A stretch of 44,029 bases of DNA from an uncultured Sphingosinicella sp. (GTDB lineage: Bacteria > Pseudomonadota > Alphaproteobacteria > Sphingomonadales > Sphingomonadaceae). Positions 1 to 13,047 of this stretch are shown one piece after another; positions within the stretch are counted from its first letter, which is position 1; each line of letters starts with the position of its first letter. A program made the translations under genes and the position numbers. Location: positions 1-44,029 of the forward strand of contig NZ_CADCWD010000077.1 of the NCBI RefSeq assembly GCF_902806315.1, given 5' to 3'. A model generated the notes under the pieces. It did not search any database. It had not been told where the DNA came from and worked only from the letters and a program-made list of their open reading frames with translations.

Positions 1-1702
1 GGTGGACCTTGGGCATCTCGGTGGTCGCGATCGTGCTATCGCTGGCCTTGGCAAGGCCTTCTGCGTCCGAGATCAGCACCACCTTCCCACCACGCGCCTG
101 CACTTCCTGCATGTTGCTGACGGTCTTGTCGAAGAGCGGCCCTGACGGCGCGAGCACGATCACCGGCACGTGATCGTCGATCAGCGCGATCGGCCCATGC
201 TTCATCTCGCCCGCGGCATAGCCTTCGGCGTGGATGTAGCTGATTTCCTTGAGCTTCAGCGCGCCTTCCAGCGCCATCGGATAATCCGGCCCTCGTCCGA
301 GATAAAGGACGTCCCGCGCGGCCGCGATGAAGTGCGACATGCGCTGGATCTGCTCGTCGCGATCGAGCGCGCGGTTCATCGCCGCCGGCGCTTCGGAGAG
401 GTGCCCGACGATCTCGCGCTCCTCCTCTTCGCTCATGCGGCCCTTGTCGCGCGCGAACTTCGTGGCGAGCGCCGCCAGCACCGAGAGCTGGCAGGTGAAG
501 GCCTTGGTTGAGGCGACGCCGATCTCCGGGCCAGCGCGGGTAGGGAGCAGCAGGTCCGCCTCGCGCGCCATCGAGCTGGTCGGCACGTTGACGACCACCG
601 CCACCTTCTGCCCCTGCTCGCGCGCATGGCGAAGGGCAGCCAAGGTGTCGGCCGTCTCGCCGGACTGGGAGATGAAGAGCGCCATCCCGCCCTCCTCCAG
701 AACCGGCTGGCGGTATCGGAATTCGGAGGCGATATCGAGCTCGACGGGCACGCGCGCGAACTGCTCGAGCCAGTATTTCGCGACCATCCCCGCATAATAG
801 GAGGTGCCGCAGGCGACGATCGTCACGCGAGGCACGTCCTTGAAGCTGAACTCCATGTCCGGAAGCGCCACTTCCTGCTCGTAGGAGCGAAGGTAGCTTT
901 GCAGCGTCTGGGCGACCACGAGCGGCTGCTCGAAAATCTCCTTCTGCATGTAATGGCGGTGGTTGCCCTTCTCGACTGCAGCGCCCGAAGCGCCGGAGGA
1001 GACGATCGGGCGCTTAACCTCGTTGTTGTCGCGGTCGTAGATGGTCGAGCCCTCGCGGGTGATCACCGCCCAGTCGCCTTCGTTCAGATAAGCGATCTGC
1101 TGGGTCAGCGGCGCCAGGGCGAGCGCGTCCGAACCGAGATAGGTCTCGCCCTCGCCATAGCCGACGGTCAGCGGCGCGCCCATCCGCGCGCCGATAAGAA
1201 GGTCGGGATGATCCTTGAACATGATCGCGACCGCGAACGCGCCCTCCAGGCGCGGCAGCACCGCCGCCACGGCGTCCTTCGGGGTCGCGCCCTTACTCAG
1301 CTCGTTTGCGACCAGATGAGCGACCACCTCGCTATCGGTCTGGCTCTCGAACGTGCGGCCGAGCGCGCGCATCTCCTCGCGCAGCGGGCGGAAATTCTCG
1401 ATGATGCCGTTGTGGACCAGCGCCACGCCATCCACAATGTGCGGATGCGCGTTGCCCACCGTCGGCGCGCCATGCGTCGCCCAACGGGTGTGGGCGATAC
1501 CGACCACGCCGGGGAGCGGTTCCTTCTGGAGCTCGGCGGCGAGGTTGTTGAGCTTGCCCTCGGCGCGGCGGCGTTCGAGCTGGCTGTCGACGATGGTGCA
1601 CACGCCCGCGGAATCATAGCCGCGATATTCGAGGCGCCTCAGCCCGCCCATTAGCCGCTCGGTAACTTCTTCACGCCCGACGATCCCGATAATCCCGCAC
1701 AT
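1..1702 (-). CDS. glmS: Glutamine--fructose-6-phosphate aminotransferase (partial)
   Basis: This enzyme makes glucosamine-6-phosphate from fructose-6-phosphate and glutamine, the first step of UDP-GlcNAc synthesis in the cytoplasm. The protein opens with MCGIIGIVG, so Cys2 becomes the N-terminal nucleophile of the class II glutamine amidotransferase domain. HTRWATHG and a GDWAVITREG stretch follow. Two SIS sugar-isomerase domains come next, with the SQSGETADT motif in the first and a GRGPDYPMALEGALKLKE stretch in the second. About 567 codons are present; the family is near 607, so roughly 40 C-terminal residues lie beyond the window start. It begins 4 nt after the glmU stop, so the two genes very likely share a transcript. 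The frame has no stop inside the window. Confidence 0.96.
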   Translation of the reverse strand, partial: MCGIIGIVGREEVTERLMGGLRRLEYRGYDSAGVCTIVDSQLERRRAEGKLNNLAAELQKEPLPGVVGIAHTRWATHGAPTVGNAHPHIVDGVALVHNGIIENFRPLREEMRALGRTFESQTDSEVVAHLVANELSKGATPKDAVAAVLPRLEGAFAVAIMFKDHPDLLIGARMGAPLTVGYGEGETYLGSDALALAPLTQQIAYLNEGDWAVITREGSTIYDRDNNEVKRPIVSSGASGAAVEKGNHRHYMQKEIFEQPLVVAQTLQSYLRSYEQEVALPDMEFSFKDVPRVTIVACGTSYYAGMVAKYWLEQFARVPVELDIASEFRYRQPVLEEGGMALFISQSGETADTLAALRHAREQGQKVAVVVNVPTSSMAREADLLLPTRAGPEIGVASTKAFTCQLSVLAALATKFARDKGRMSEEEEREIVGHLSEAPAAMNRALDRDEQIQRMSHFIAAARDVLYLGRGPDYPMALEGALKLKEISYIHAEGYAAGEMKHGPIALIDDHVPVIVLAPSGPLFDKTVSNMQEVQARGGKVVLISDAEGLAKASDSTIATTEMPKVH

Positions 1703-1706
1703 ACGC

Positions 1707-3068
1707 TTACTTTCTCGCCAGCTTCTTTTCGGCCATCTTCGCTCGGAAACGCGCGGCCCAGCCGGGAGCCACCTGCTGCTTGCCGCGCGCAAGCGCAAGC
1801 GCGTCTTCCGCCACGTCACGCGTCACCACCGATCCGGCGCCGACGATCGCTCCGGCCCCGATCGAGACCGGCGCCACCAGCGCGCTGTTGGAGCCGATGA
1901 AAGCGCCTTCGCCGATCTTGGTGCCGTATTTGAAAAAGCCGTCATAATTGCAGGTGATCGTCCCCGCGCCGATATTAGCCCCCGCGCCCACATCGGCGTC
2001 GCCGATATAGGAAAGGTGGTTGGCCTTGGCGCCCTTGCCGAGCCGCGCCTTCTTCACCTCGACGAAATTGCCGACCTTTGCATTTTCGTCGATCTCGGCG
2101 CCGGGGCGGAGACGGGCATAGGGGCCGATCTCCGCATTGCGGGCGATCGTCGCACCTTCAATATGACTGAACGCCCGGATGGTGACGCAGTCGGCGACGC
2201 GCACGCCCGGCCCGAACACGACATGGGGCTCGATGACGCAATCGCGGCCGACCTCGGTGTCGTGCGCGAACCAGACCGTGTCGGGAGCCACCAAGGTCAC
2301 TCCGTCCGCCATCGCTTGCAGGCGCCGCCTGCGCTGCCATTCGGCCTCGACGAGCGCAAGCTCGGCGCGGCTGTTGACGCCCGCCATCTCCCAGGGCTGC
2401 GCCTCGATGACGACGGACTTACGCCCGTCACCCTGCGCGAGCATGACGATGTCGGGCAGATAATATTCACCCGCGGCATTCTCGTTCCCCACCCGGCCAA
2501 GCAGCGGGAACAGGTCTTCGGCCCGCGCGGCCATCAGGCCCGAATTGCACAAGTCGACCGCGCGCTCCTCCGGCGTCGCGTCCTTGAACTCGACCATCTT
2601 CTGGATCGCGCCGTCGTCGCCCGCGATGATGCGGCCATAGGCCCCGGCATCGTCGGGTCGGAAGCCGACCACCACCACGGCGGGCGCATCGGCTCCGTTG
2701 AGCCGCTCGAGCATGCGCGACATCGTCTCCGCCTCGACCAGCGGCGTGTCGCCGTAGAGAATGAGGACGTCGCCCGCGAAGCCGTTCAGTTCCCGCTCCG
2801 CCTGACGGACGGCGTGGCCGGTGCCGAGCTGCTGCTCCTGCACCACGGTCTCGCCGCCGCGTGCGCTGACGAGATGCTCGACCTGCTCGCGCCCGCTGCC
2901 CACGACGACGATCTTGTGCGCGGGCGCCAGCCGGTCGACGACGCCCAGCAGATGGTCGAGCATGGCGCGCCCGGCGATCGGGTGCAGCACCTTGTGGACG
3001 TCGGATTTCATGCGCGTCCCCTTGCCGGCGGCAAGGATCACTGCGGCAAAGGGTCGGGCCGTCTTCAT
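1707..3068 (-). CDS. glmU: Bifunctional GlcNAc-1-P uridyltransferase / GlcN-1-P acetyltransferase
   Basis: GlmU acetylates glucosamine-1-phosphate and then uridylates it to UDP-GlcNAc, the precursor of peptidoglycan and lipid A. The start chosen gives 453 residues (E. coli GlmU has 456) and places the nucleotidyltransferase signature LAAGKGTRMKSDVHKVLH at the N-terminus. A longer open frame runs upstream but adds 114 residues with no family resemblance. The C-terminal half is a left-handed beta-helix of hexapeptide repeats ending in the acetyltransferase core (NIGAGTITCNYDG, FIGSNSALVAPV). glmS follows directly on the same strand. A divergent phosphatase gene starts 84 bp upstream, so both promoters must lie in 3069-3152. 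Confidence 0.96.
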   Translation of the reverse strand: MKTARPFAAVILAAGKGTRMKSDVHKVLHPIAGRAMLDHLLGVVDRLAPAHKIVVVGSGREQVEHLVSARGGETVVQEQQLGTGHAVRQAERELNGFAGDVLILYGDTPLVEAETMSRMLERLNGADAPAVVVVGFRPDDAGAYGRIIAGDDGAIQKMVEFKDATPEERAVDLCNSGLMAARAEDLFPLLGRVGNENAAGEYYLPDIVMLAQGDGRKSVVIEAQPWEMAGVNSRAELALVEAEWQRRRRLQAMADGVTLVAPDTVWFAHDTEVGRDCVIEPHVVFGPGVRVADCVTIRAFSHIEGATIARNAEIGPYARLRPGAEIDENAKVGNFVEVKKARLGKGAKANHLSYIGDADVGAGANIGAGTITCNYDGFFKYGTKIGEGAFIGSNSALVAPVSIGAGAIVGAGSVVTRDVAEDALALARGKQQVAPGWAARFRAKMAEKKLARK

Positions 3069-3152
3069 CTCAATTCCTGCGGGAGGTTTCGGGCGGCTCC
3101 ATCGCATGGAAATCTTGCGAATTCCATAGGCCTGGCCCATGGCGCCGCGCCT

Positions 3153-3821
3153 ATGCCCGCCATTCGTTTCGACTCTGTCGCCTTCGATCTCGACGGCACT
3201 CTGGCAGACACCGCGCCCGATATTGCCCACGCGCTGAACCACGCACTCGGCACGATCGGCCGCCTGGCCATCGCGTCGCAGGTCGTGCGCACCATGATCG
3301 GGGACGGCGCCCGCAACCTGATCCGCCGCGCGCTGACGGCCACCGGCGGCAACGACGAGGCTTTGATCGACCAACTCTATCCCGTTTACGTCGACTTCTA
3401 CGCCGACCATCCTTGCGGCGGCACGAAGCCGTTCGCGGGAGTGGAAGCGGCAATGGACGCGCTGGCCGCCAACGGCGTCCGGCTCGCCATCTGCACGAAC
3501 AAGCCGGAGCGGGTCAGCCGGGCGTTACTGGAAGCGCTGGGCTGGACCGAGCGGTTCTCGGCAATCGTCTGCGGCGACACCCTGAGCGTGCGCAAGCCCG
3601 ACCCCGCGCCGCTCTTCGCCGCCATTCGGGAGGCGAGGAGCGCCGCGTTCGTCGGCGACTCGCTGATCGACGCCGAGACGGCGCGCGCTGCCGCGGTCCC
3701 GTTCGTCGCCGTCAGCTTCGGCTATTCCAGCGTCCCCGCCGACCGGTTCGGGGCCGATGCCGTGATCGACAGCTTCGACGCACTGATCCCGGCCCTGGAC
3801 GGGCTCAGCGCCGCGCCTTGA
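3153..3821 (+). CDS. gph: HAD-family phosphatase, phosphoglycolate phosphatase-like
   Basis: This 222-residue protein is a haloacid-dehalogenase superfamily phosphatase. Motif I is FDLDGTLADT near residue 10 (nucleophile and acid-base aspartates), motif II is the CTNKPE stretch, motif III is the lysine of VRKPDP, and motif IV is VGDSLIDAETA. A helical cap follows motif I, as in the Gph branch that removes 2-phosphoglycolate left from DNA repair or oxygenase chemistry. The substrate is inferred from similarity only; other HAD phosphatases share the layout. The ATG chosen puts motif I at the usual distance from the N-terminus. The 3' end overlaps the converging nucleotidyltransferase gene by 17 bp. 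Confidence 0.85.
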   Translation: MPAIRFDSVAFDLDGTLADTAPDIAHALNHALGTIGRLAIASQVVRTMIGDGARNLIRRALTATGGNDEALIDQLYPVYVDFYADHPCGGTKPFAGVEAAMDALAANGVRLAICTNKPERVSRALLEALGWTERFSAIVCGDTLSVRKPDPAPLFAAIREARSAAFVGDSLIDAETARAAAVPFVAVSFGYSSVPADRFGADAVIDSFDALIPALDGLSAAP

Positions 3822-4812
3822 TCCAGAGGTGCCGCGCCAGCATCGGCAGCGGCATGCGCAGCAGGTGCGAGCGAACGTAGAAGCCCAGGCGCAGGGCCGG
3901 CCGGGTCGCCTGGCCCCACCCGTTGCGGGCGACCAGCCGCGCCCTGAAAGCCCGATCGACCTTGTGGCTGCGGGTCCAACCGGTTGGTGAAGGTGTCCCG
4001 TAGAAGTCGGCGGCGATACGCGCCGCCCGCTGAACCGCGGGGAGAAGCTGGTGGCGTGAAGCTCGATCGTGAAGCTCCGGCCAGAAGCCGGCCCTCCCCC
4101 CGAATTCACGCAGCATCCTGTCAATGTCCCAAAGGTTTCGAAGCCCGCCCGCGAGGTCGCCGTCGGCGAAGAGATGTGCCGCGGCGTGGACGATCATGTC
4201 TGGAGGCGAAAGGACTCTCAGGCCCCCGTCCAGCTCGACGCTGTCGGCGATCATGCCCGCCGCATCCGGTTTCGGCTTGGCAGTGAGCGGCAGGATCGTG
4301 TGGTGCACGTCGATCATGCGGTCGCGTTCGCGGTGGATCAGCGGCGGCAGCTCGTGCATCCATCGGCGATAATAAAGGCTGTCATAGGCGTCCTCCTTCA
4401 CCCACTCCCAGCCCGCCGCGAGCAACGCCTGCTCGACTTCGTCGAGCCGGTCGCGCGGCACCATGATGTCGAGATCGCCGATCGAGCGGCCGAGCCCCGC
4501 GTCCAGCCCCGCGGCCGTATATGCGGTGCCCTTGAGCAGGATGACCGGAAGGTCGAGCGGAGCCAGTGCGCGCCGTGCCATCTCCGCTTCCCAGAGCGCC
4601 TGCCGCTTCGCCTGCTCCGCATCGCGCCGCGCTGCCTCGAAAATCGTCCCGACGTTCGAGGGGAGCGCCTCCTCCTGCAGGCGATAGGCAAGGCTTCCGA
4701 TCAGCGCTTCCGCTCGGGCTACGGCAATGAGGGCCGTCCACTCCGGGTCGCGGAGTGAGCGGGCGCTGGACGGCTCCGCCAGAGCGCGGACGAGAAGCCG
4801 TGCCGCATTCAC
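3805..4812 (-). CDS. Nucleotidyltransferase family protein of the HprK-related cassette
   Basis: A 335-residue protein of the uncharacterised nucleotidyltransferase group (NTP_transf_5-like). The core is LLKGTAY at about 92-98, then GRSIGDLDIMVP at about 108-119, which supplies the Gly-Ser and Asp-x-Asp (D113, D115) of a minimal nucleotidyltransferase fold. The IDVHHTILP stretch and a DPPDM/AAHLF-like helix follow. It is the last gene of a four-gene minus-strand cassette and overlaps the kinase stop by 4 nt (ATGA), which points to translational coupling. The family is recurrent beside HprK-related kinases and PqqD-like proteins. Its substrate is unknown; NMP transfer to a peptide, protein or small molecule is an inference. 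The tail is basic (ends IKARR). Confidence 0.85.
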   Translation of the reverse strand: MNAARLLVRALAEPSSARSLRDPEWTALIAVARAEALIGSLAYRLQEEALPSNVGTIFEAARRDAEQAKRQALWEAEMARRALAPLDLPVILLKGTAYTAAGLDAGLGRSIGDLDIMVPRDRLDEVEQALLAAGWEWVKEDAYDSLYYRRWMHELPPLIHRERDRMIDVHHTILPLTAKPKPDAAGMIADSVELDGGLRVLSPPDMIVHAAAHLFADGDLAGGLRNLWDIDRMLREFGGRAGFWPELHDRASRHQLLPAVQRAARIAADFYGTPSPTGWTRSHKVDRAFRARLVARNGWGQATRPALRLGFYVRSHLLRMPLPMLARHLWIKARR

Positions 4813-5669
4813 TTGGCCCAGAGCTCCTCGACCTGGGCAAGCGCCGCCTCCGTGCTCGGATAATCGATGGCGAGCGCGGGCACGGTCGTCACGAGATGGG
4901 TCAACGCGTCGAAGGCGCGCTCGCCGAGCGCCACGTAATTGGTCGAAGCCTGGGTCAGGCGGACGAACACCTCGGCCGGGCCGACCGGTCGCACCGCAGC
5001 CTCGAGATCGCGACCGTAGCGCGGGAAAAGGATTAGCGCGGGAGCGGCCGGCTCACTCATCCGCTCGATTGCGTCCCGGCTGGGGCGGAAATGGCGGATC
5101 GCTCCCTTCGGCGTGCCCTTCAGCCAAGGGCCGAGGCGGTTGGGCCCTGCCCTTTCTTCCATGACGTACACCGACTGGTTCTTGAGGCTGACGGCGCGTG
5201 GAAACGGGTGCAGCGTGCCCGTGTCGAGGTCGAGCAGGGCGAATTCGTCGCCCATCAGCCGCCACCCCGCTTCGCCGAGCAAGGCCGCCAGAGTCGACTT
5301 GCCCGATCCGGAGAGCCCAGTCATCAGCAAGGCCCGGCCGTCCCGCTCCACGGTCGAGGCATGGAGCAGAAGGTGTCGCCGATACCCGAGCGCCATCTGC
5401 AGGTTCATGCCCATCTCGGCGGCCAGCAGCCCATGCTCCAGCGCCATCGGGACCGCATCCGGAAGCATATAATCGCCCCGGATCGCGACCGACGGCCGCA
5501 CCCATCGCCGCCAGGGTTTCTCCGCCTCCAGGCGCACGGTGAAATCGCAGACTGCATCGGCCGCCGGATAATCGCGGTAAAGCTCAGCCAGCTGCCGCAC
5601 CGGCGCCGCCCATTGCGATCCGACCCGGAACGTCACGGGCCCGACCTTCAGCCGATGCTCGTGCTTCAT
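4809..5669 (-). CDS. HprK-related kinase A
   Basis: A 286-residue protein related to the C-terminal kinase domain of HPr kinase/phosphorylase. It has a Walker A loop GLSGSGKST (about 118-126), preceded by the LLLHASTVERDG strand typical of the fold, and a LMGDEFALLD stretch (about 138-147) in the Walker B position. The HPr-recognition domain of true HprK is missing and no HPr gene is nearby, so HPr is unlikely to be its target. Family knowledge: HprK-related kinase A genes travel with a PqqD-like gene and a nucleotidyltransferase gene, and their function is undefined. Stop-start overlaps of 4 nt with both neighbours indicate a tightly coupled operon. Phosphorylation of a peptide or protein substrate is inferred. 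Confidence 0.88.
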   Translation of the reverse strand: MKHEHRLKVGPVTFRVGSQWAAPVRQLAELYRDYPAADAVCDFTVRLEAEKPWRRWVRPSVAIRGDYMLPDAVPMALEHGLLAAEMGMNLQMALGYRRHLLLHASTVERDGRALLMTGLSGSGKSTLAALLGEAGWRLMGDEFALLDLDTGTLHPFPRAVSLKNQSVYVMEERAGPNRLGPWLKGTPKGAIRHFRPSRDAIERMSEPAAPALILFPRYGRDLEAAVRPVGPAEVFVRLTQASTNYVALGERAFDALTHLVTTVPALAIDYPSTEAALAQVEELWAK

Positions 5670-5938
5670 GCGCGCCGCACCAGCCCCGCCGCTTCGAGTT
5701 CGGCCAGACGCGGCACCAAAGCCTCGGCTCCGCCCTCGACATCGAACCGCTCCTCAATACGGGCGAGCAGTACCTCTTCGTCAGCAGGAGCGCTGGCGAG
5801 CGCCTCCAATATCTGAGGCGCAGGCGGCGCGAGCAGATGGGTAATGCCGGAGGGGCGGTGAAAAATGGCAACGAGGCCGCCGAGCGGCACGGCCTTCAGC
5901 TCATCTGCGGAATCGGCAATGTAACGAGGACCGGCCAT
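5666..5938 (-). CDS. PqqD-like peptide chaperone of the HprK-related (HPr-rel-A) system
   Basis: A 90-residue protein with the size and pattern of PqqD-like RiPP recognition elements: an N-terminal beta-hairpin (LVAIFHRPSGITHLL), then helices with a conserved-type PAPQILEAL turn, and a C-terminal LAELEAAGLVRRA helix. In PQQ and lasso/ranthipeptide pathways such domains bind the leader of the precursor peptide and deliver it to modifying enzymes. It overlaps the kinase start by 4 nt and lies 17 nt after the stop of the exported small protein. That context makes substrate presentation to the kinase and nucleotidyltransferase the most natural role, which is inference. Similar proteins are called HPr-rel-A system PqqD family peptide chaperones. 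Confidence 0.82.
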   Translation of the reverse strand: MAGPRYIADSADELKAVPLGGLVAIFHRPSGITHLLAPPAPQILEALASAPADEEVLLARIEERFDVEGGAEALVPRLAELEAAGLVRRA

Positions 5939-5955
5939 GCCGGCCCACCCTTAGC

Positions 5956-6363
5956 CTAGCGCGGCATCTGGAGCGAGGCGTAGCAGGTAAATCCGCTCAT
6001 CCCCGCCTGAAGGCGCCGGATATAATTGGCATAGGCCTGCGAAGATTCGGCATCCATGCCCGCCGGAGTGAGGCCGCCGTTCAAGAGCTGCTTGGCTTCC
6101 TCGCCGGTCAGCGGGCGCGGCAGCGGCGGCACGGCGCCTTCCGTTCCTGCCGGGACGAGGCTGCCGTCCGGAGCGATATAGCTCCCGGCCGCCTGCGGCG
6201 AAGGAATTGGGATCTCGCAATTGAGAACGGACCCGGCGGTCTGCGCCAGCGCCGGCTTGATCGTGACCACCGTTGAGGCGGCCGCGGCGCCCAATGCGAG
6301 CACCAAACGGCGGGTGGGCTCGGGAGCCTGGCTCTCGCCCTTTGGATCGAACGCTTCGCTCAT
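5956..6363 (-). CDS. Exported small protein, candidate substrate of the HprK-related cassette
   Basis: A 135-residue protein not assigned to a named family. The N-terminus has a polar region, a twin arginine (PTRRLVLAL, R18-R19) and a hydrophobic stretch ending ALA|QT at about residue 40, so Tat or Sec export is expected; the motif fits the Tat consensus loosely. The mature part carries two cysteines, at about 49 (LNCEIP) and 127 (FTCYAS), which could form one disulfide. A Pro/Gly-rich middle follows (IAPDGSLVPAGTEG), then a helical ANYIRRLQAG segment, and it ends LQMPR. It is first in the operon, 17 nt before the PqqD-like gene, which is where a precursor would be expected. Substrate status is inferred from position only. 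Confidence 0.75.
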   Translation of the reverse strand: MSEAFDPKGESQAPEPTRRLVLALGAAAASTVVTIKPALAQTAGSVLNCEIPIPSPQAAGSYIAPDGSLVPAGTEGAVPPLPRPLTGEEAKQLLNGGLTPAGMDAESSQAYANYIRRLQAGMSGFTCYASLQMPR

Positions 6364-6460
6364 GCCTGCTCCGGATACTCGGCGGATCGTTTCTTAAGAG
6401 TAAAGCCTTGCAAATGCGAGCGGTAGAAGCTGTCACATGATCCCGCTAAGGGACAAATCG

Positions 6461-7714
6461 ATGGCGCGTGGGTGGATATTGCGGGCGCTCGGGGGCGTGG
6501 CGGCGGCGGTGCTGGGCGTCGCAGCGGCGGTGGCGGCCGGCGCGCCGATGACGGGTGCGCTCTTCGCCCTGCTCGCCGGCATTGTCGCGGCGGCTCTGGC
6601 GTGGCCGGGCCAGAGCAGCAGGCCGGCCGCTGAGACGCCGATCGTCGAGACCGGCCTCCCGCCCCTTCCCGAAGCGCTCGACCTCCTGGAAGCCGTCGAG
6701 GACCCCTTGCTGATCGTCCGCAACCGCCGCGTCGTCTATTCCAATCCTTCGGCGCGCGCAGTGCTCGGCGAGCATATCGAGGGCGCGGACGTGCGCCTCG
6801 CGATCCGGCATCCGGCCGCAGCCGAACGGCTGATCGACCGCGGCGAAGCGGCGGAGCGAGTGACGCGCACGGAGCTTGTCGGGCTTGGCGAGCGCGATCG
6901 CCGCTGGCTGATGACCACGACTCTCCTGAAGGACGGCTGCCGGCTGGTGCGCCTCACCGACCGCAGCGCCGCCCATGCATCGGAGCAGATGCGCGTCGAT
7001 TTCGTCGCCAACGCCAGCCACGAATTGCGCACGCCGCTCGCGACCTTGCTCGGCTTCCTTGAAACGCTGCAAGACGAACGCGCGGCGAGCGATGCGAAAA
7101 CACGCTCGCGCTTCATCAAGATCATGTTCGACGAAGCGCGCCGGATGCAGCGCCTGGTCGACGACCTCATCTCCCTCTCCCGTATCGAAGGCGAACGCTT
7201 CACCCTGCCGCGCGAGTCCGTCGAGCTGATGCCGGTCGTGGAGGAGGTGAAGGCGAGCCTCTCGCTTATGATGGAAGAGAAAGGGAGCAGCGTTCGCATC
7301 GAGCGGGGTGCGTTCGATCCGGTGGTTCTGGGCGATCAGTTCCAGCTGCTCCAGCTCGTGCAGAACCTGTTGGTGAACGCGCTCAAATATGGGCGGCCCG
7401 CATCCGAAGTCGTCATCCGCTTCGAGGAAGCCGGCCCGGACATGCTTCGGATGAGCGTGATCGATCAGGGCGAAGGCATCGCGCAGGAGCATCTCCCCCG
7501 CCTCACCGAGCGCTTCTACCGCGTCGATCCGAGCCGCAGCCGCTCGATGGGGGGGACGGGGCTGGGCCTTGCTATCGTCAAACATATCGTCGGGCGACAC
7601 CGCGGGCGGCTCGACATCAGGAGCAAGGTCGGGGAGGGAACGTCCGTCCGCGTCTACCTGCCGCGCGCCGGCGCCGCGGGAGCATCACCACCCCAGCAAA
7701 GCCTCAGCGGCTAG
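6461..7714 (+). CDS. phoR: Phosphate regulon sensor histidine kinase
   Basis: PhoR phosphorylates PhoB when phosphate is scarce. Two hydrophobic segments lie at the N-terminus (about 1-55), followed by a PAS-like domain (DLLEAVEDPLLIVRNRR), the HisKA H-box FVANASHELRTPL, and an HATPase_c domain with N-box LLVNALKYG, G1 DQGEGI and G2 GGTGLGLAIVKHI. The start at 6461 (417 residues) is preferred because AAGGGA lies about 8 nt upstream; an in-frame ATG at 6437 would add eight residues without a good ribosome binding site. phoR is apart from phoB, with the porin and pst genes in between. Its 3' end overlaps a small converging gene by 11 bp. Confidence 0.93.
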   Translation: MARGWILRALGGVAAAVLGVAAAVAAGAPMTGALFALLAGIVAAALAWPGQSSRPAAETPIVETGLPPLPEALDLLEAVEDPLLIVRNRRVVYSNPSARAVLGEHIEGADVRLAIRHPAAAERLIDRGEAAERVTRTELVGLGERDRRWLMTTTLLKDGCRLVRLTDRSAAHASEQMRVDFVANASHELRTPLATLLGFLETLQDERAASDAKTRSRFIKIMFDEARRMQRLVDDLISLSRIEGERFTLPRESVELMPVVEEVKASLSLMMEEKGSSVRIERGAFDPVVLGDQFQLLQLVQNLLVNALKYGRPASEVVIRFEEAGPDMLRMSVIDQGEGIAQEHLPRLTERFYRVDPSRSRSMGGTGLGLAIVKHIVGRHRGRLDIRSKVGEGTSVRVYLPRAGAAGASPPQQSLSG

Positions 7715-7883
7715 CGGCGAGGTTGCGATAAGCGGCCAGCGCGGCCGAGTAATCCATCGCGAGCTGGCGGTGGACCTGCGCCTCCGGGCTCCCGGAACGC
7801 CCCGCCGCTTCTTCTTGCGCGAGCCGGCGCGAGAAGAACTCGATCTCCTTTTCCGGCGTCCATCCCTGCTGCATTCTCACCAT
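7704..7883 (-). CDS. Small hypothetical protein
   Basis: A helical, charged protein of about 59 residues (starting MVRMQQGW) with the pattern EKEIEFFSRRLAQEEAA then HRQLAMDYSAALAAYRNLA, ending NLAASR. I do not recognise a named family. The pattern resembles other short sphingomonad proteins with a Glu-rich helix and a second Ala/Tyr helix, such as the one at 26590-26781. An in-frame GTG at 7901 would extend it, but that codon sits inside the PHO box of the porin, so the ATG at 7883 (or 7874) is more likely. It converges on phoR with an 11 bp overlap. Confidence 0.55.
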   Translation of the reverse strand: MVRMQQGWTPEKEIEFFSRRLAQEEAAGRSGSPEAQVHRQLAMDYSAALAAYRNLAASR

Positions 7884-7894
7884 CCCAAGCGCCT

Positions 7895-7912
7895 CTGTCA
7901 CAAAAATGTAAC
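7895..7912 (+). promoter_or_regulatory. PHO box upstream of the porin gene
   Basis: The sequence CTGTCACAAAAATGTAAC fits the PhoB site layout of two 7-bp repeats separated by 4 bp. The first repeat CTGTCAC is perfect and the second ATGTAAC matches at five of seven positions. It lies 65 bp before the porin start, in the proper orientation. Confidence 0.78.
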
Positions 7913-7977
7913 CTAGGCTTCAAATGGTTGTCATTCACTTGCATCAGCAGCGACGATGTCGGAGATGGCGGGCCCGT

Positions 7978-9165
7978 ATGCCTCGATCAACTCCCTTGCT
8001 GTGCGCCCTCGCCGCTGCGTTTTCCTGCCTCCCGACAGCGACCGCGGCCCAGCGGCTGGAGAGCAACGGCTGGTCGCTGGAGCCGCGCGGCCGCTTCCAA
8101 GTGGATGTGGGACGGGTCGAGCGCCCCGCCGGCGTCACCGTTCCGGATCTCGGCTCGGTCGGCGAGATCCGCCGGGCGCGGCTTGGCGTCCAGGGCGACA
8201 TACCCGGCGGGTTCGGCTATGTGTTCGAGGTCGATTTCGCGGGCGGCGGCCCGATCGAGATCACCGATGCCTTCCTGACCTACAAGGCTTCGGACCGCGT
8301 GAGGCTCACCGCGGGCCAGCACAACAATCTCCAGTCGCTGGAGGAGCTGACCAGCTCGCGCTTCACCTCCTTCCTCGAGCGCGCGGCCTTCACCGACGCC
8401 TTCAACTTCGAGCGCCGCGTGGGCCTGTCCGCAACCTTCTCAGAGGGCCCTCTCATTGCCAGCGGCGGCCTGTTCACCGACCCGCTTCCGGAACTGACCG
8501 GCGAGGATGATGGCGGTCAATCCGCCAGTGCCGACGCCCGGATCGTCTACGCGCCGAAGCTGCGCGGTACGCAGTTCCATCTCGGCGGCTCGGCTCATCA
8601 TCGCGACCTGGCGGGCGGCGCGGACGCAACGACACGCTATCGCGAACGCCCCTTGATCCACGCGACCGAGGCGCGCTTCGTCGCAACGCCGCGACTCCCG
8701 GCGAGGTCCGAAAGCCACTACGGGCTGGAGGCCGCGATGATCCGTGGCCCGCTGCATGCGGCAGGCGAGTTGCACTGGCTCCATTCCGATCTTCGCGGCC
8801 CGCGCGCGGATCCCACCTTCTTCGGCGGCTATGCGGAGGTGGGCTTTTATTTCACGGGAGAGACGCGCGGTTACAAAGGCGGCCGGTTCGACCGCACCAC
8901 CGTCAGGCGCCCAGTCGACAAAGGTGGCACCGGCGCACTCCAGCTCAACCTGCGCTACGATCACCTGTCGCTCAACGATGCCGGGATCGTCGGCGGCCGG
9001 CAGCAAGGCTACCAGGCGTCCCTGATCTGGATCCCGCACGATCAGATTCGCTTCCTGCTCAGCTACGCGCGGCTGAACTTGGACGATGCGGCCATCCCGG
9101 CAGCCGGCGGAGACCGGAACTACGGCATCGACGTGATCGGAGCGCGCGCGCAGCTCGACTTCTGA
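7978..9165 (+). CDS. Phosphate-selective porin, OprO/OprP family
   Basis: A 395-residue outer-membrane beta-barrel that would let phosphate or polyphosphate cross the outer membrane. A signal peptide (PLLCALAAAFSCLPTATAAQ) is followed by GRFQVDVGRVERPAG, the RRARLGVQGDIPGGFGYVFEVDFAG region typical of the family, and a terminal strand ending in LDF with the C-terminal Phe needed for barrel insertion. The ATG at 7978 is preferred since it gives a standard signal peptide; an upstream in-frame ATG at 7924 would add 18 mostly basic residues. The PHO box at 7895-7912 and the downstream pst genes support phosphate control. Confidence 0.9.
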   Translation: MPRSTPLLCALAAAFSCLPTATAAQRLESNGWSLEPRGRFQVDVGRVERPAGVTVPDLGSVGEIRRARLGVQGDIPGGFGYVFEVDFAGGGPIEITDAFLTYKASDRVRLTAGQHNNLQSLEELTSSRFTSFLERAAFTDAFNFERRVGLSATFSEGPLIASGGLFTDPLPELTGEDDGGQSASADARIVYAPKLRGTQFHLGGSAHHRDLAGGADATTRYRERPLIHATEARFVATPRLPARSESHYGLEAAMIRGPLHAAGELHWLHSDLRGPRADPTFFGGYAEVGFYFTGETRGYKGGRFDRTTVRRPVDKGGTGALQLNLRYDHLSLNDAGIVGGRQQGYQASLIWIPHDQIRFLLSYARLNLDDAAIPAAGGDRNYGIDVIGARAQLDF

Positions 9166-9179
9166 CCGGCCCGAAGCTG

Positions 9180-9208
9180 CTGTCATAAAAGTTACATGGA
9201 AACGTCAC
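9180..9208 (+). promoter_or_regulatory. Triple-repeat PHO box upstream of pstS
   Basis: Three 7-bp PhoB half-sites recur with an 11-bp period: CTGTCAT, GTTACAT and ACGTCAC, separated by AAAA and GGAA. The first is a perfect half-site. The block lies 69 bp before the pstS start, where PhoB would recruit RNA polymerase. Three units suggest more than one PhoB dimer can bind. Confidence 0.82.
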
Positions 9209-9276
9209 ACAAGGCGCTCGGATTCGTCTTTAGCCGGATCGCCGAACCCGGTTAGCGGGCTCCAAGGAGGCACATC

Positions 9277-10332
9277 TTGAACAAGGCACATCTCGTCTCG
9301 GCGCTGTCAGCGCTGGCCCTCGCCGCATGCGGTTCGGGCGGCGGCTCCGGTGGCGGCGGCGGCGGCACGGGCGGCAACCAGATCCAGATCGTGGGCTCCT
9401 CAACCGTTTATCCCTTCACCAAGGCGGTGGCGGAGCGCTTTGCCCAGTCGAACCCCTCCTTTGCCTCGCCGATCGTCGAATCGACCGGCACTGGCGCCGG
9501 CATGAAGCTGTTCTGCAACGGCGTCGGCCAGAACTTCCCCGACATGACCAACGCGTCGCGCCGCATCAAGGCCAGCGAGGTCGAGCAGTGCCGCACCAAC
9601 GGCGTCAACAAGATCATCGAGGTGCCCGTCGGCATTGACGGCCTGGCGCTCATCGAGGCGAAGAACGGCCCGGCGATGCAGCTGACGGTCGAGGACGTCT
9701 ATAAGGCGCTCGCCGCCAATCCCTATGGCAAGCCCAACACCGCCAAGACGTGGCGCGACGTGAACGCCTCGCTTCCGGCAATCCCGATCCAGGTGTTCGG
9801 CCCGCCGCCGACGTCCGGCACTCGCGACAGTTTCGCCGAGCTCATCCTGGAAAAGGGCTGCGACGCGAACCCCCAGATGAAGGCGCTGAAGGCAAGCAAT
9901 TCCGACCAGCACAAGGACATCTGCACCAAGATCCGCGAGGACGGCGCCTTCGTGGAGGCCGGTGAGAACGACAACCTTCTCGTTCAGAAGGTCTCCGGCA
10001 ATCCGGGCGCTCTGGGCGTGCTCGGCTACAGCTTCCTCGAAGCCAATCTCGACACGCTGAAGGCGGTGCCGCTGAACGGCGTCGCGCCGACCGCCGAGAC
10101 GATCAGCAGCCTGCAATATCCGGGCGCGCGCCAGGTCTATGTCTATGCCAAGGGCGAGCATGTCGGCGTCATTCCGGGCATGAAGGAATTCTTGGCCGAA
10201 TATGCCCGCGGCTGGACGCAGGGCGGCTATCTGGCGCAGCGCGGGCTCATCCCCTCGCCCGCCGACGTGCAGGCAAAGGCAACGGCGGCGGCGACGCAGC
10301 TGACGGCGCTGAACCCGAGCGAACTCAAGTAA
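9277..10332 (+). CDS. pstS: Phosphate ABC transporter substrate-binding lipoprotein
   Basis: PstS binds phosphate in the periplasm and hands it to PstCA. The start is TTG, set by a strong AAGGAGG at 9264-9270. The signal peptide ends in a lipobox LAAC, so Cys18 is probably lipidated, and a Gly/Ser linker joins it to the folded part. Phosphate-contact motifs are visible: VGSSTVYPFT, then GTGAGMKLFC, and TSGTRDSFAEL. The 351-residue length is normal. It is the first gene of pstSCAB-phoU-phoB. A stem-loop follows at 10343-10360. Confidence 0.94.
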   Translation: MNKAHLVSALSALALAACGSGGGSGGGGGGTGGNQIQIVGSSTVYPFTKAVAERFAQSNPSFASPIVESTGTGAGMKLFCNGVGQNFPDMTNASRRIKASEVEQCRTNGVNKIIEVPVGIDGLALIEAKNGPAMQLTVEDVYKALAANPYGKPNTAKTWRDVNASLPAIPIQVFGPPPTSGTRDSFAELILEKGCDANPQMKALKASNSDQHKDICTKIREDGAFVEAGENDNLLVQKVSGNPGALGVLGYSFLEANLDTLKAVPLNGVAPTAETISSLQYPGARQVYVYAKGEHVGVIPGMKEFLAEYARGWTQGGYLAQRGLIPSPADVQAKATAAATQLTALNPSELK

Positions 10333-10342
10333 ACGCGTAAAT

Positions 10343-10360
10343 GCCGGGCACCCGCCCGGC
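10343..10360 (+). promoter_or_regulatory. Intercistronic stem-loop between pstS and pstC
   Basis: GCCGGGC-ACCC-GCCCGGC is a perfect 7-bp stem with a 4-nt loop, 11 nt after the pstS stop. There is no T-run, so it is more likely an mRNA-stabilising or partial-attenuation element than a full terminator. Such elements let a binding protein be made in excess over its permease. Confidence 0.6.
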
Positions 10361-10382
10361 TGAAACAGGAACGGTCGTTCGC

Positions 10383-11765
10383 GTGTCATCTGGCGCAATC
10401 GCATTGCTGGTGCTCGGCCTGGGCCTCGTTGCCTGGCTGAGCGCGCGCGCCAAGGCGCAGGCCTTTGCCGGGCCCGGCAAGGCGCGCCTGCACTCCCTAC
10501 CCGGCTATCATGGCTGGTATGTGGCCCTGTGGGCGGTGATCCCGGCCCTGCTCTTCCTCGCGGTCTGGAGTTCCGTGTCCGGCGGCCTCGTCACCGCATC
10601 CGTGCTCGACAGCCCGGCAGCGGCCTCGCTTCCGGCCGAGCCGATGCAGCGCGGCGCCATTCTCGACGAGGCTCGCGCGCTGGCGGACGGCACCCAGGAG
10701 GCGGCGTTCAACCCGCAGGCGACCGCGCTCGCACCGGAATATGAGAGCGCCCAGTCCCGGATGGCGATCATCGGCACCGTCGCCGCGCTGCTGCTCGCCT
10801 TTGCCGGCGGTGCGTTCGCCTTCACGCGCGTCTCGCCCAATTTTCGCGCGCGGACGCGGGTCGAGCGACTGGTGATGGCTCTGCTGCTGGTCGCCTCGCT
10901 GATTGCGATCCTGACGACGCTCGGCATCGTCCTGTCGCTGCTCTTCGAATCGCTCCGCTTCTTCTCCCGGGTCAGCCCGATCGAGTTCCTGTTCGGCACC
11001 AGCTGGAGCCCGCAGACCGCCATCCGCGCCGATCAGGCCGGATCGTCGGGCGCGTTCGGCGCGATTCCGCTGTTCTGGGGTACGATCTTCATCGGCGCGA
11101 TCATCGCCATGATCGTCGCCATACCGCTCGGACTGATGAGCGCCATCTACCTCACCCAATATGCCACCCCCCGCGTGCGCAGCTGGATGAAGCCGCTGCT
11201 CGAGATCCTCGCCGGCGTGCCCACCGTGGTCTACGGCTATTTCGCTGCCTTGACGGTGGCTCCGGCGATCCGCGACTTCGGGCTTACCCTCGGCATTCCA
11301 TCCTCCTCGGAATCCGCGCTCGCGGCGGGCCTCGTCATGGGCATCATGATCATCCCGTTCGTCTCTTCCATGGCCGACGACAGCATTGCCGCCGTGCCGC
11401 AGGCGATGCGCGACGGTTCGCTCGCCATGGGTGCGACCACTTCGGAAACGATCAAGCGCGTGCTCGTCCCGGCCGCCCTTCCCGGCGTGGTGGGCGGTGT
11501 CCTGCTCGCCGTCAGCCGCGCGATCGGGGAGACGATGATCGTCGTCATGGCCGCCGGGCTTGCCGCCAACCTCACTGCCAACCCCTTCGAGAGCGTCACC
11601 ACCGTGACCACCCAGATCGTGCAGCTTCTCACCGGCGACCAGGAGTTCGACAGCGCCAAGACGCTCGCCGCCTTCGCGCTCGGCCTCGTGCTGTTCATCG
11701 TCACCCTGCTGCTCAACATCGTCGCGCTGCGCGTGGTGAAGAAATATCGCGAAGCCTATGAGTAG
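10383..11765 (+). CDS. pstC: Phosphate ABC transporter permease PstC
   Basis: One of the two channel-forming inner-membrane subunits of the Pst importer. Hydrophobic segments start at the N-terminus (AIALLVLGLGLVAWLSA), a long extra region lies between the early segments, and the permease core carries the EAA-like loop (GATTSETIKRVLVPAALPG). The GTG at 10383 is preferred: the alternative ATG at 10341 would translate the stem-loop at 10343-10360 and add 14 residues of polar sequence before the first membrane segment. This start gives 460 residues. Its stop overlaps the pstA start. Confidence 0.9.
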   Translation: MSSGAIALLVLGLGLVAWLSARAKAQAFAGPGKARLHSLPGYHGWYVALWAVIPALLFLAVWSSVSGGLVTASVLDSPAAASLPAEPMQRGAILDEARALADGTQEAAFNPQATALAPEYESAQSRMAIIGTVAALLLAFAGGAFAFTRVSPNFRARTRVERLVMALLLVASLIAILTTLGIVLSLLFESLRFFSRVSPIEFLFGTSWSPQTAIRADQAGSSGAFGAIPLFWGTIFIGAIIAMIVAIPLGLMSAIYLTQYATPRVRSWMKPLLEILAGVPTVVYGYFAALTVAPAIRDFGLTLGIPSSSESALAAGLVMGIMIIPFVSSMADDSIAAVPQAMRDGSLAMGATTSETIKRVLVPAALPGVVGGVLLAVSRAIGETMIVVMAAGLAANLTANPFESVTTVTTQIVQLLTGDQEFDSAKTLAAFALGLVLFIVTLLLNIVALRVVKKYREAYE

Positions 11766-13047
11766 CGTCGTCGCCCAACCGGCCGCCTCTGCCCTTCCAA
11801 AGCGCGCGCCCACCGATTGGAAGGCGAAGGCGATGCAGCAGCGCATCCGCCGCCGCTACGCGGCCGAGCGGCGCTTCCGCTACATCGGGCTTGGCGCCGT
11901 CTTGCTGTCTGCCGCCTTCCTCGCCTTCCTGCTCATCACCATGCTGGCCAACGGCGTCCGGGGGTTCACCCAGACCGAGGTGCGGCTCGACATCGACTTC
12001 GCTCGCAGCGCGCTCATCATCGATCCCGCCACCTTGCAGGGCTTCGGCGCGGATGCCGCGCTCGCCGGGGCCGACATAGACGGGGCGGTGCGCAAGGCCG
12101 CCGCCGCCCAATATGGCCCCCGCGGTGCGGATCTCCTTTCCGAAGGAGCCTGGCTGCGCATTCGCGATGCGATCAGGCAAGACCCACAGGTCCTGACACG
12201 CACCGCCACATTCTGGGTTCCCGCCTCCAGCCCGATCGACGTCGCCGCCAAGAGCGACGCGCCCGCCGAAATCGAACGCGCCTACGAAAGCCTGCAGCAG
12301 CGGAACGCCGTCCGGACCGGGTTCAACGCCAACTTCCTTGGCGGCTCCGACGCGACCGATCCAACGATGGTCGGCATCTGGGGCGCGTTCAAAGGCTCGC
12401 TGCTGACCATGCTGGTGACGCTCGCGCTCGCCTTCCCGATCGGCGTGCTCTCGGCCGTCTATCTCGAGGAATATGCGCCGCGGAACCGCTGGACCGACAT
12501 CATCGAGGTGTCGATCAACAATCTCGCGGCCGTCCCCTCGATCATCTTCGGCCTGCTCGGCCTCGCGGTGTTCCTCAATTTCATGCACCTGCCGCGGTCC
12601 GCGCCTTTGGTCGGCGGCCTCACACTGGCGCTGATGACCATGCCCGTGATCGTCATCGCCGGCCGCAACGCTATCAAGTCCGTGCCGCCGTCGATCCGCG
12701 ACGCCGCCCTCGGCATCGGCGCGTCCCGCATCCAGGTCGTGTTCCACCACGTGCTGCCGCTGGCACTGCCCGGCATCCTCACCGGCACCATCATCGGCAT
12801 GGCCCGCGCGCTGGGCGAGACCGCGCCGCTGCTGATGATCGGCATGCGGGCCTTCATCGCCTCGCCGCCGGGAGGAGTGACCGAGCCCGCGACCGTGCTG
12901 CCCGTGCAGATTTTCCTTTGGTCGGACGAAGTAAGCCGCGGTTTCGTCGAGAAGACGTCCGCCGCGATCATCGTGCTGCTGGTCTTCCTTCTCGCGATGA
13001 ACGGCATCGCCATCTATCTTCGCAACAAATTCGAACGGCGCTGGTGA
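11758..13047 (+). CDS. pstA: Phosphate ABC transporter permease PstA
   Basis: The second channel subunit of the Pst importer, 429 residues. A basic cytoplasmic N-terminus ([16 protein letters not shown]) leads into the first membrane segment, followed by a long periplasmic insert (about 70-190) as in DUF3333-type PstA proteins, then five or more membrane segments with the EAA loop [21 protein letters not shown]. It starts inside the pstC stop (8-nt overlap, ATGAGTAG), which indicates coupled translation. The insert makes it longer than the E. coli protein (about 296). Confidence 0.93.

Follow-up and report, generated by a model that had tools for sequence, protein, structure and literature searches.

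What is the substrate of an HprK-related kinase, a PqqD-like protein and a nucleotidyltransferase-like protein whose genes stand next to that of a small exported protein? The question is raised by a stretch of 44,029 nucleotides from an uncultured Sphingosinicella sp. (contig NZ_CADCWD010000077.1, hereafter the window), in which these four genes form one unit. As the original prediction had it, they run in one direction, here on the minus strand, in the order small protein, PqqD-like protein, kinase and nucleotidyltransferase, with a 17-nt gap between the first two and 4-nt overlaps at 5666-5669 and 4809-4812. Comparison with related loci gives good support to the further claim that the exported protein is the target of the other three. 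Our favoured explanation, which we hold tentatively and at a little short of an even chance, is that the unit modifies one dedicated protein and then exports it, with the kinase acting on Ser130 and the product serving an exopolysaccharide layer of the XrtA type. The matter reaches beyond this one contig: the kinase family has curated models and is widespread, as 126 of the 296 genomes sampled from the order carry a match over the cut-off, and so do 61 of 398 in a phylum sample that partly overlaps with the former (beyond the order, all of these belong to other classes). The enzyme set now has a concrete candidate substrate, with two candidate residues.

By curated cut-offs, the kinase and the PqqD-like protein belong to what NCBIfam names the HPr-rel-A system. 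The kinase scores 262.5 bits against TIGR04352 (cut-off 200) and the PqqD-like protein 56.1 bits against TIGR04353 (cut-off 35), the latter remaining under the cut-off of the Pfam PqqD model (13.9 bits, cut-off 23.4). The nucleotidyltransferase matches PF14907 at an E of 1.4e-51, and the small protein reaches the cut-off of no Pfam or NCBIfam family. Within the order, the third best kinase score, 290.7 bits, is that of locus L033 (genome G053), to which we return below. The names of the HPr-rel-A models state neither a substrate nor a function, and a literature search on these names, or on the combination of kinase and PqqD, found no paper on function in the library searched. Here we propose a substrate, its motifs and a link to XrtA.

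The dedication of the small protein to the trio follows from co-occurrence. A kinase match of at least 187 bits was obtained for 128 genomes in the order-level sample of 296; these are the 126 over the cut-off plus G006 and G093, and will be called kinase genomes; three of the kinases are partial in their assemblies (G023, G045 and G051). Relatives of the window's small protein are present in 70 of the 296 genomes, all 70 of which are kinase genomes, versus none of the 168 others (Fisher p ~1e-32; here, as in all our statistics, ancestry is not controlled for). Scanning upstream of all 128 kinases for an open reading frame (ORF) with a twin-arginine (RR) signal and [ST]-C-x-x-S within its last 80 residues, we found such an ORF within 2 kb for 111 of them. 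The small protein lies 3.7 kb upstream of the kinase at L039, is partial at a contig end at L062 and is present as a shortened ORF at L227, and in 12 genomes, all of one genus, it is kept away from the trio. Whether linked to the trio or found elsewhere, a small protein with a signal of the twin-arginine translocation (Tat) type thus exists in 126 of the 128 kinase genomes; at L223 the kinase is located at a contig end and the upstream protein is not assessable. The PqqD-like gene and the nucleotidyltransferase gene, searched by profile, are likewise each found in 126 of the 128. Together with the 22 loci from other classes that were examined, all of which carry an RR-signal protein upstream of the kinase, these counts bear out the small protein as the conserved, dedicated partner of the trio. 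They also answer the question, posed along with the original prediction, of whether the trio is widely found without a conserved small exported protein: among these 128 genomes and 22 loci it is not. A small-protein match also lies inside the 4-kb flanks of 78 of 80 named loci, the best 80 of at least 560 kinase relatives, which are nearly all Sphingomonadales by title. One of these records, a Sphingobium draft (L310), has the small protein divided between two reading frames, through either a sequencing error or a broken gene. Another, titled Bacillus sp. 2B10 (L305), has the kinase (65% identical) as well as the small protein, and is probably a mislabelled or mixed assembly. Sphingobium sp. 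SYK-6 (L314) likewise has the unit.

What, then, is conserved in the small protein itself? We counted motifs in 119 substrates, leaving out L052 because the script had chosen a wrong ORF (the right one is 5151-5654). The protein of L137 was read individually instead of being drawn from the automated output. The RR pair occurs in 119/119 by construction of the search, and Leu at RR+3 in 101/119. The pattern of RR, hydrophobic stretch and AxA, and its conservation, fit a Tat signal, and TatC is encoded in the genome; none of the curated Tat models reaches its cut-off on the small protein of the window. A Cys is found at the post-signal place in 118 of the 119, and the number of Cys is even in 114. 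The even counts suggest disulfides, the simplest of which would join the post-signal Cys with the Cys of the C-terminal motif. The substrate of L053 lacks a Cys after the signal and has an odd number of them, which is explained by its RR being placed in an upstream extension. In the alignment of the window's small-protein family (A3, 66 rows), the best conserved stretch is the tail, residues 121-135, with a mean majority fraction of 0.91, followed by residues 42-54 (0.82), 17-41 (0.78) and 55-101 (0.66). The structure model of the small protein is of middling confidence, with a mean predicted local distance difference test (pLDDT) of 63.6. It reaches 81-88 for residues 61-120, the predicted folded part, 55 and 46 for the tail, and lower values still for the signal. 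A fold search of the PDB with this model gave no match at E <0.001, and by sequence no solved relatives were found (best E 1.8). Being the best conserved stretch and yet one of low pLDDT, the tail looks as would be expected of a recognition or modification site.

When the clades of small proteins are compared by profile, the signal and the first Cys align (42-49 columns), whereas the middle hardly does; A7 against A3 is the sole pair that aligns over most of its length, and weakly so. Since RR signals look alike anyway, such scores say little about common descent. Judged by the sequences, the features common to the clades are the Tat signal, a Ser-Cys pair right after it and the C-terminal [ST]-C-x-x-S, and in these terms the exported precursor originally predicted can now be described more sharply. 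The motif is present in 123/123 C-termini that were read, 111 of which had been selected by that motif and 12 of which had not. Among the 12 genomes with an unlinked small protein, the C-terminus was read in nine, and G097, G215 and G240 are known by match alone. Because the 111 are motif-selected, a test is provided only by the 17 inspected loci, none of which yielded a counter-example. As a background figure, the last 80 residues contain the motif in 219 of the 3633 ORFs of 100-330 aa that occur in all 150 loci, substrates and shadow ORFs included. The features of the unit are collected in Table 1.

Table 1. Position of the four genes, of the residues and motifs discussed, and of the divergent neighbour.
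Feature	Position	Strand	Basis
Small Tat-type exported protein, proposed precursor, 135 aa	5956-6363	-	ORF, RR-type signal, 66-row alignment A3
RR-type (Tat) signal region, residues 18-41	6241-6312	-	R19 invariant, R18 at least 90% in A3
Ser45, four residues before the first Cys, candidate phosphorylation site	6229-6231	-	Invariant in A3
Cys49, just after the signal	6217-6219	-	Invariant in A3
C-terminal motif G-F-T-C-Y-A-S-L, residues 124-131	5971-5994	-	G124, F125, T126, C127 and S130 invariant, 66 rows
Ser130, favoured candidate phosphorylation site	5974-5976	-	Invariant in A3
PqqD-like protein (PqqD_rel_X), 90 aa, proposed precursor-binding helper	5666-5938	-	TIGR04353
HprK-related kinase A (HprK_rel_A), 286 aa	4809-5669	-	TIGR04352
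Walker A loop of the kinase, residues 118-126, GLSGSGKST	5292-5318	-	G121, G123, K124, S125 and T126 invariant, 19 rows
NTP_transf_5 nucleotidyltransferase-like protein, 335 aa	3805-4812	-	PF14907
PhoR-like histidine kinase, divergent, outside the unit	6437-7714	+	TIGR02966, 291.6 bits, under cut-off 334.2

Both the kinase and the transferase look active, because their catalytic residues do not vary. Among 19 diverse kinases no variation is seen at H103, the Walker A residues, D141, E142, K163 or K188, and in ten rows of the NTP_transf_5 family the same holds for G108, R109, D113, D115 and D168, a pattern expected of an active nucleotidyltransferase fold. The set H103-K124-D141-E142 compares with the essential His-Lys-Asp-Asp of the lasso peptide kinases, the residues having been paired without an alignment. 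On the kinase, the PqqD-like protein and the transferase no signal is visible by eye, and for this reason we place the modification before export.

From gene order, conservation, motifs, unvarying catalytic residues and co-occurrence, all of them features that can be read from the sequences, we infer the following sequence of events. The PqqD-like protein would bind the precursor while this is still in the cytoplasm, with the RR signal or its vicinity as the most likely site; that it reads the signal is a guess on our part. The HprK-like kinase would place a phosphate on the Ser conserved in the C-terminal [ST]-C-x-x-S, where Ser130 is favoured because the tail is so strongly conserved, and the NTP_transf_5 enzyme would then add a sugar or a nucleotidyl group to that phosphate. 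The original prediction spoke of a possible nucleotidylation. By analogy, addition of a sugar seems at least as likely, because the nearest tested relatives phosphorylate Ser and, in one reported case, hexosylate the phosphate (PMC9266682). The modified protein would be exported by the Tat pathway and cut by signal peptidase, after which the post-signal Cys may pair with the motif Cys as a disulfide, and the product would probably serve an exopolysaccharide layer of the XrtA type. The Tat pathway carries folded, finished proteins, so this route would suit a modification made in the cytoplasm. A more elaborate version, in which the PqqD-like protein restrains the RR signal until the Ser bears a phosphodiester-linked sugar, and the exported, disulfide-closed protein anchors or primes the XrtA exopolysaccharide, is rather unlikely and offered as speculation; if true, it would amount to a new kind of link between protein and polysaccharide.

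The proposed role in a polysaccharide layer derives from the distribution of XrtA. Scored at E <1e-50 from a table of 234 genomes, XrtA is present in 122 of the 128 kinase genomes, compared to 89 of the 168 others (p ~2e-17, with shared ancestry left in). Of the six kinase genomes without a strong match, five (G023, G045, G051, G084 and G101) fall outside the XrtA table and G113 has a weak match. The six assemblies each comprise 60 to 400 contigs, and four of the genomes share a genus in which the matches of the remaining members stay under the cut-off. In at least 12 genomes, none of them from the window's family, XrtA and the kinase are no more than 14 kb apart. Neither of the two other sampled genomes of the window's genus has the kinase over its cut-off, the small protein or XrtA. 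At 14 of the 22 loci from other classes, phmmer matches were obtained to XrtA-system glycosyltransferases, PrsT, EpsB or the export protein, each represented by one example, and NCBIfam confirms XrtA-system families at L131, L132, L133 and L144.

In these other classes, which we guess to be beta- and gammaproteobacteria, SCWxS is located near the C-terminus of the RR-signal protein at 10 of the 22 loci, as SCWxSF in eight and SCWxSL in two, and the nucleotidyltransferase gene is found by profile at 21. As such, the sequences indicate that the Tat-type partner is general, and that [ST]CxxS marks one large branch. Where the motif is lacking, 8 of the 12 proteins show by eye a stretch C-[ST]-[ILV]-S-G or S-[PH]-G-aromatic instead (L133, L134, L142, L144, L147, L148, L149 and L151), and these eight might represent another type of substrate for the same enzymes. 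At L147-L152, small ORFs located between the substrate and kinase genes are unconfirmed candidates for divergent PqqD-like proteins.

We must however take into account a number of observations that weigh against our proposal. At 12 of the 22 loci from other classes the RR-signal protein (its signal recognized by script in eight, and by eye at L133, L134, L147 and L152) has no [ST]CxxS, and a PqqD-like gene is found by profile at only 16 of the 22, six having no match. Within the order, L033 carries the kinase and the nucleotidyltransferase gene with neither a PqqD-like gene nor a Tat protein in the 15 kb examined. The YxxP/WxxP motif, which the helper proteins of lasso peptides and linear polyphosphorylated peptides (LPP) are reported to read, occurs in just 2 of the 119 substrates, in a search that spanned the RR with 45 residues on its N-terminal side and 40 on its C-terminal side. 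The association with XrtA becomes weaker at the curated cut-off, which is reached in 202 genomes (113/128 versus 89/168, p ~2e-11, again uncorrected for ancestry), and XrtA is frequent without the trio. The even Cys counts, for their part, also share ancestry. Lastly, the Ser before the first Cys is as universal as the Ser of the motif, and conservation thus leaves the site of phosphorylation unfixed.

This last point brings in the first of the alternatives, in which the system is the same and the kinase targets Ser45, within S-x-x-x-C, the C-terminal motif serving for recognition or for the disulfide. We consider this unlikely, with a small but real chance of being right. A Ser within five residues before the first Cys is present in 118/118 substrates (L053 being excluded from this count on account of its upstream RR), at exactly -4 in 98 of the 109 of the order, and it is invariant in alignments A6 and A7 as it is in A3. 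Such a site would also be closer to that of the LPP, as LppK is reported to act on Ser3 (PMC13381572), and several of the motif-less proteins from other classes have Ser-rich stretches after their first Cys. In the alignment from other classes (A5), however, the offsets vary and the Ser has no single invariant position, and in the window's family the tail is better conserved than the region around Ser45, which argues for Ser130.

A second alternative, to which we give a similarly modest weight, holds that the exported protein is a partner instead of a substrate. The enzymes would modify a glycolipid, a sugar or a polysaccharide precursor, and the Tat protein would act on the product outside. 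In its favour are the matches to XrtA polysaccharide genes beside the 14 loci in other classes, four of them confirmed, the near-constant presence of XrtA in kinase genomes and the predicted folded part of the small protein. Yet the middle of this protein varies between clades while the signal and the C-terminal motif stay, as would be expected if enzymes recognized the two ends of a precursor, and less so if a function outside the cell were conserved; and PqqD-like proteins are, from what is known of the family, peptide-binding helpers.

If the small protein is indeed the substrate, could it be the precursor of a ribosomally synthesised and post-translationally modified peptide (RiPP) proper, of which a portion would be excised and set free as a small, modified peptide? 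The three enzyme types are shared with LPP clusters and with those resembling that of paeninodin (PMC13381572). The LPP (LppA/K/B/N/S/D) were reported in 2026 for Bacillota, with LppK adding phosphates to Ser3 of the precursor core, and with a discrete RiPP recognition element (RRE) protein and an uncharacterised nucleotidyltransferase in a cluster around a small precursor; such clusters are found in capsular polysaccharide loci (PMC13381572). With the PqqD-like protein as a putative RRE, the trio and its small precursor would correspond to this gene set. Unlike the LPP as reported, the present system belongs to Pseudomonadota, has a C-terminal Ser motif, and shows a Tat-type signal where the LPP have a YxxP leader, an SpI-like peptidase and an MsbA-like exporter (PMC13381572). 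The words Pseudomonadota, Proteobacteria, Sphingo-, twin-arginine and exosortase are absent from the main text of that paper. The window's unit is therefore closest in logic to the LPP and yet wants for two of their features, so that we do not file it there.

The lasso peptides provide a comparable parallel in PadeK, SyanK and PsmK/PsmN, in which an HprK-like kinase acts on Ser and, for pseudomycoidin, a relative of the nucleotidyltransferases takes part. PadeK is reported to phosphorylate the C-terminal Ser of the paeninodin precursor, with its His-Lys-Asp-Asp set being essential, and PsmK/PsmN to phosphorylate and to add hexoses to the phosphate; PsmN was held responsible for the latter, with a host glycosyltransferase not excluded (PMC9266682). 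In contrast to these systems, the precursor here has a Tat-type signal and is predicted to be folded in part, and its motif Ser is followed by five residues instead of being the last. The named neighbours of the unit are GlmU, a HAD-type hydrolase, the PhoR-like kinase, a phosphate-selective porin and phosphate ATP-binding cassette (ABC) transporter genes. Among these there is no macrolactam cyclase, no B2 or SpI-like peptidase and no MsbA-like or other peptide exporter, a statement that covers the neighbours only, as no genome-wide search was made and the other ORFs of 1-12000 were read by eye. Such neighbours, the near-absence of the YxxP/WxxP motif and a precursor of 135 aa that is partly folded and so unlike those of lasso peptides or LPP make a released peptide improbable. 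If our preferred reading, a protein modified and then exported whole, holds true, the phosphopeptide chemistry of lasso peptides and LPP would extend to Tat-exported proteins and be linked to exopolysaccharide of the exosortase type.

It could also be asked whether the small protein is simply a neighbour, retained by operon inertia. The unit does tend to stay in place: in 76 of the 91 loci of the order with room to see it, a divergent phoR-like gene adjoins the substrate gene, which means that adjacency is partly a matter of ancestry. By comparison, the occurrence of LPP clusters is called patchy (PMC13381572), a contrast that on our side is drawn from gene neighbourhood and not from a tree. 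However, in the 12 genomes where the small protein has been relocated it is still retained, and its family was found in none of the 168 kinase-less genomes. The other classes, moreover, keep an RR-signal protein in position with a middle that hardly aligns, and with the C-terminal motif at 10 of 22 loci. Mere hitch-hiking thus seems very improbable.

Finally, a role in carbon regulation through the phosphotransferase system, with the kinase acting on HPr, has next to nothing to recommend it beyond a distant relationship to HprK in sequence and fold. The model of the kinase (pLDDT 93) matches structures of phosphoenolpyruvate carboxykinase best (E ~1e-7) and those of HPr kinases more weakly (E ~1e-4, with low TM-scores), the two folds being known relatives, and by sequence its only solved relatives are weak P-loop matches. 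It scores just 16.1 bits against TIGR00679, HPr kinase/phosphorylase (cut-off 240), and 14.6 bits against Pfam Hpr_kinase_C (cut-off 33.3). One HPr match and one classic HprK match are present in the genome itself, on another contig and at 1.5 kb from each other, in agreement with the earlier remark that no HPr gene is nearby and that a classic HPr role is unlikely.

The surroundings of the unit raise the matter of phosphate. Downstream of the phoR-like gene, at 7924-13047 of the window, lie genes for a phosphate-selective porin, a substrate-binding protein and PstC/PstA. Regulation by Pho was nevertheless rejected: upstream of the substrate gene, matches to a Pho-box consensus reach at most 12 of 14 positions, compared to up to 13 in random stretches of the loci, the mean score being slightly higher upstream of the substrate than in random stretches of the same loci. 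Phage defence was considered as well, and no PADLOC model matched at E 0.001.

Some variations on the gene layout were also seen. At four loci (L034, L186, L197 and L226) a tandem pair of RR-signal motif proteins precedes one trio. In L052, a glycosyltransferase-like gene (5725-6903) separates the gene of the small protein from that of the PqqD-like protein, and L217 also has a match. A gene for a trypsin-like (HtrA-like) serine peptidase lies near the unit at eight of the 22 loci from other classes and at two of the order, L036, L210, L131 and L142 being among them.

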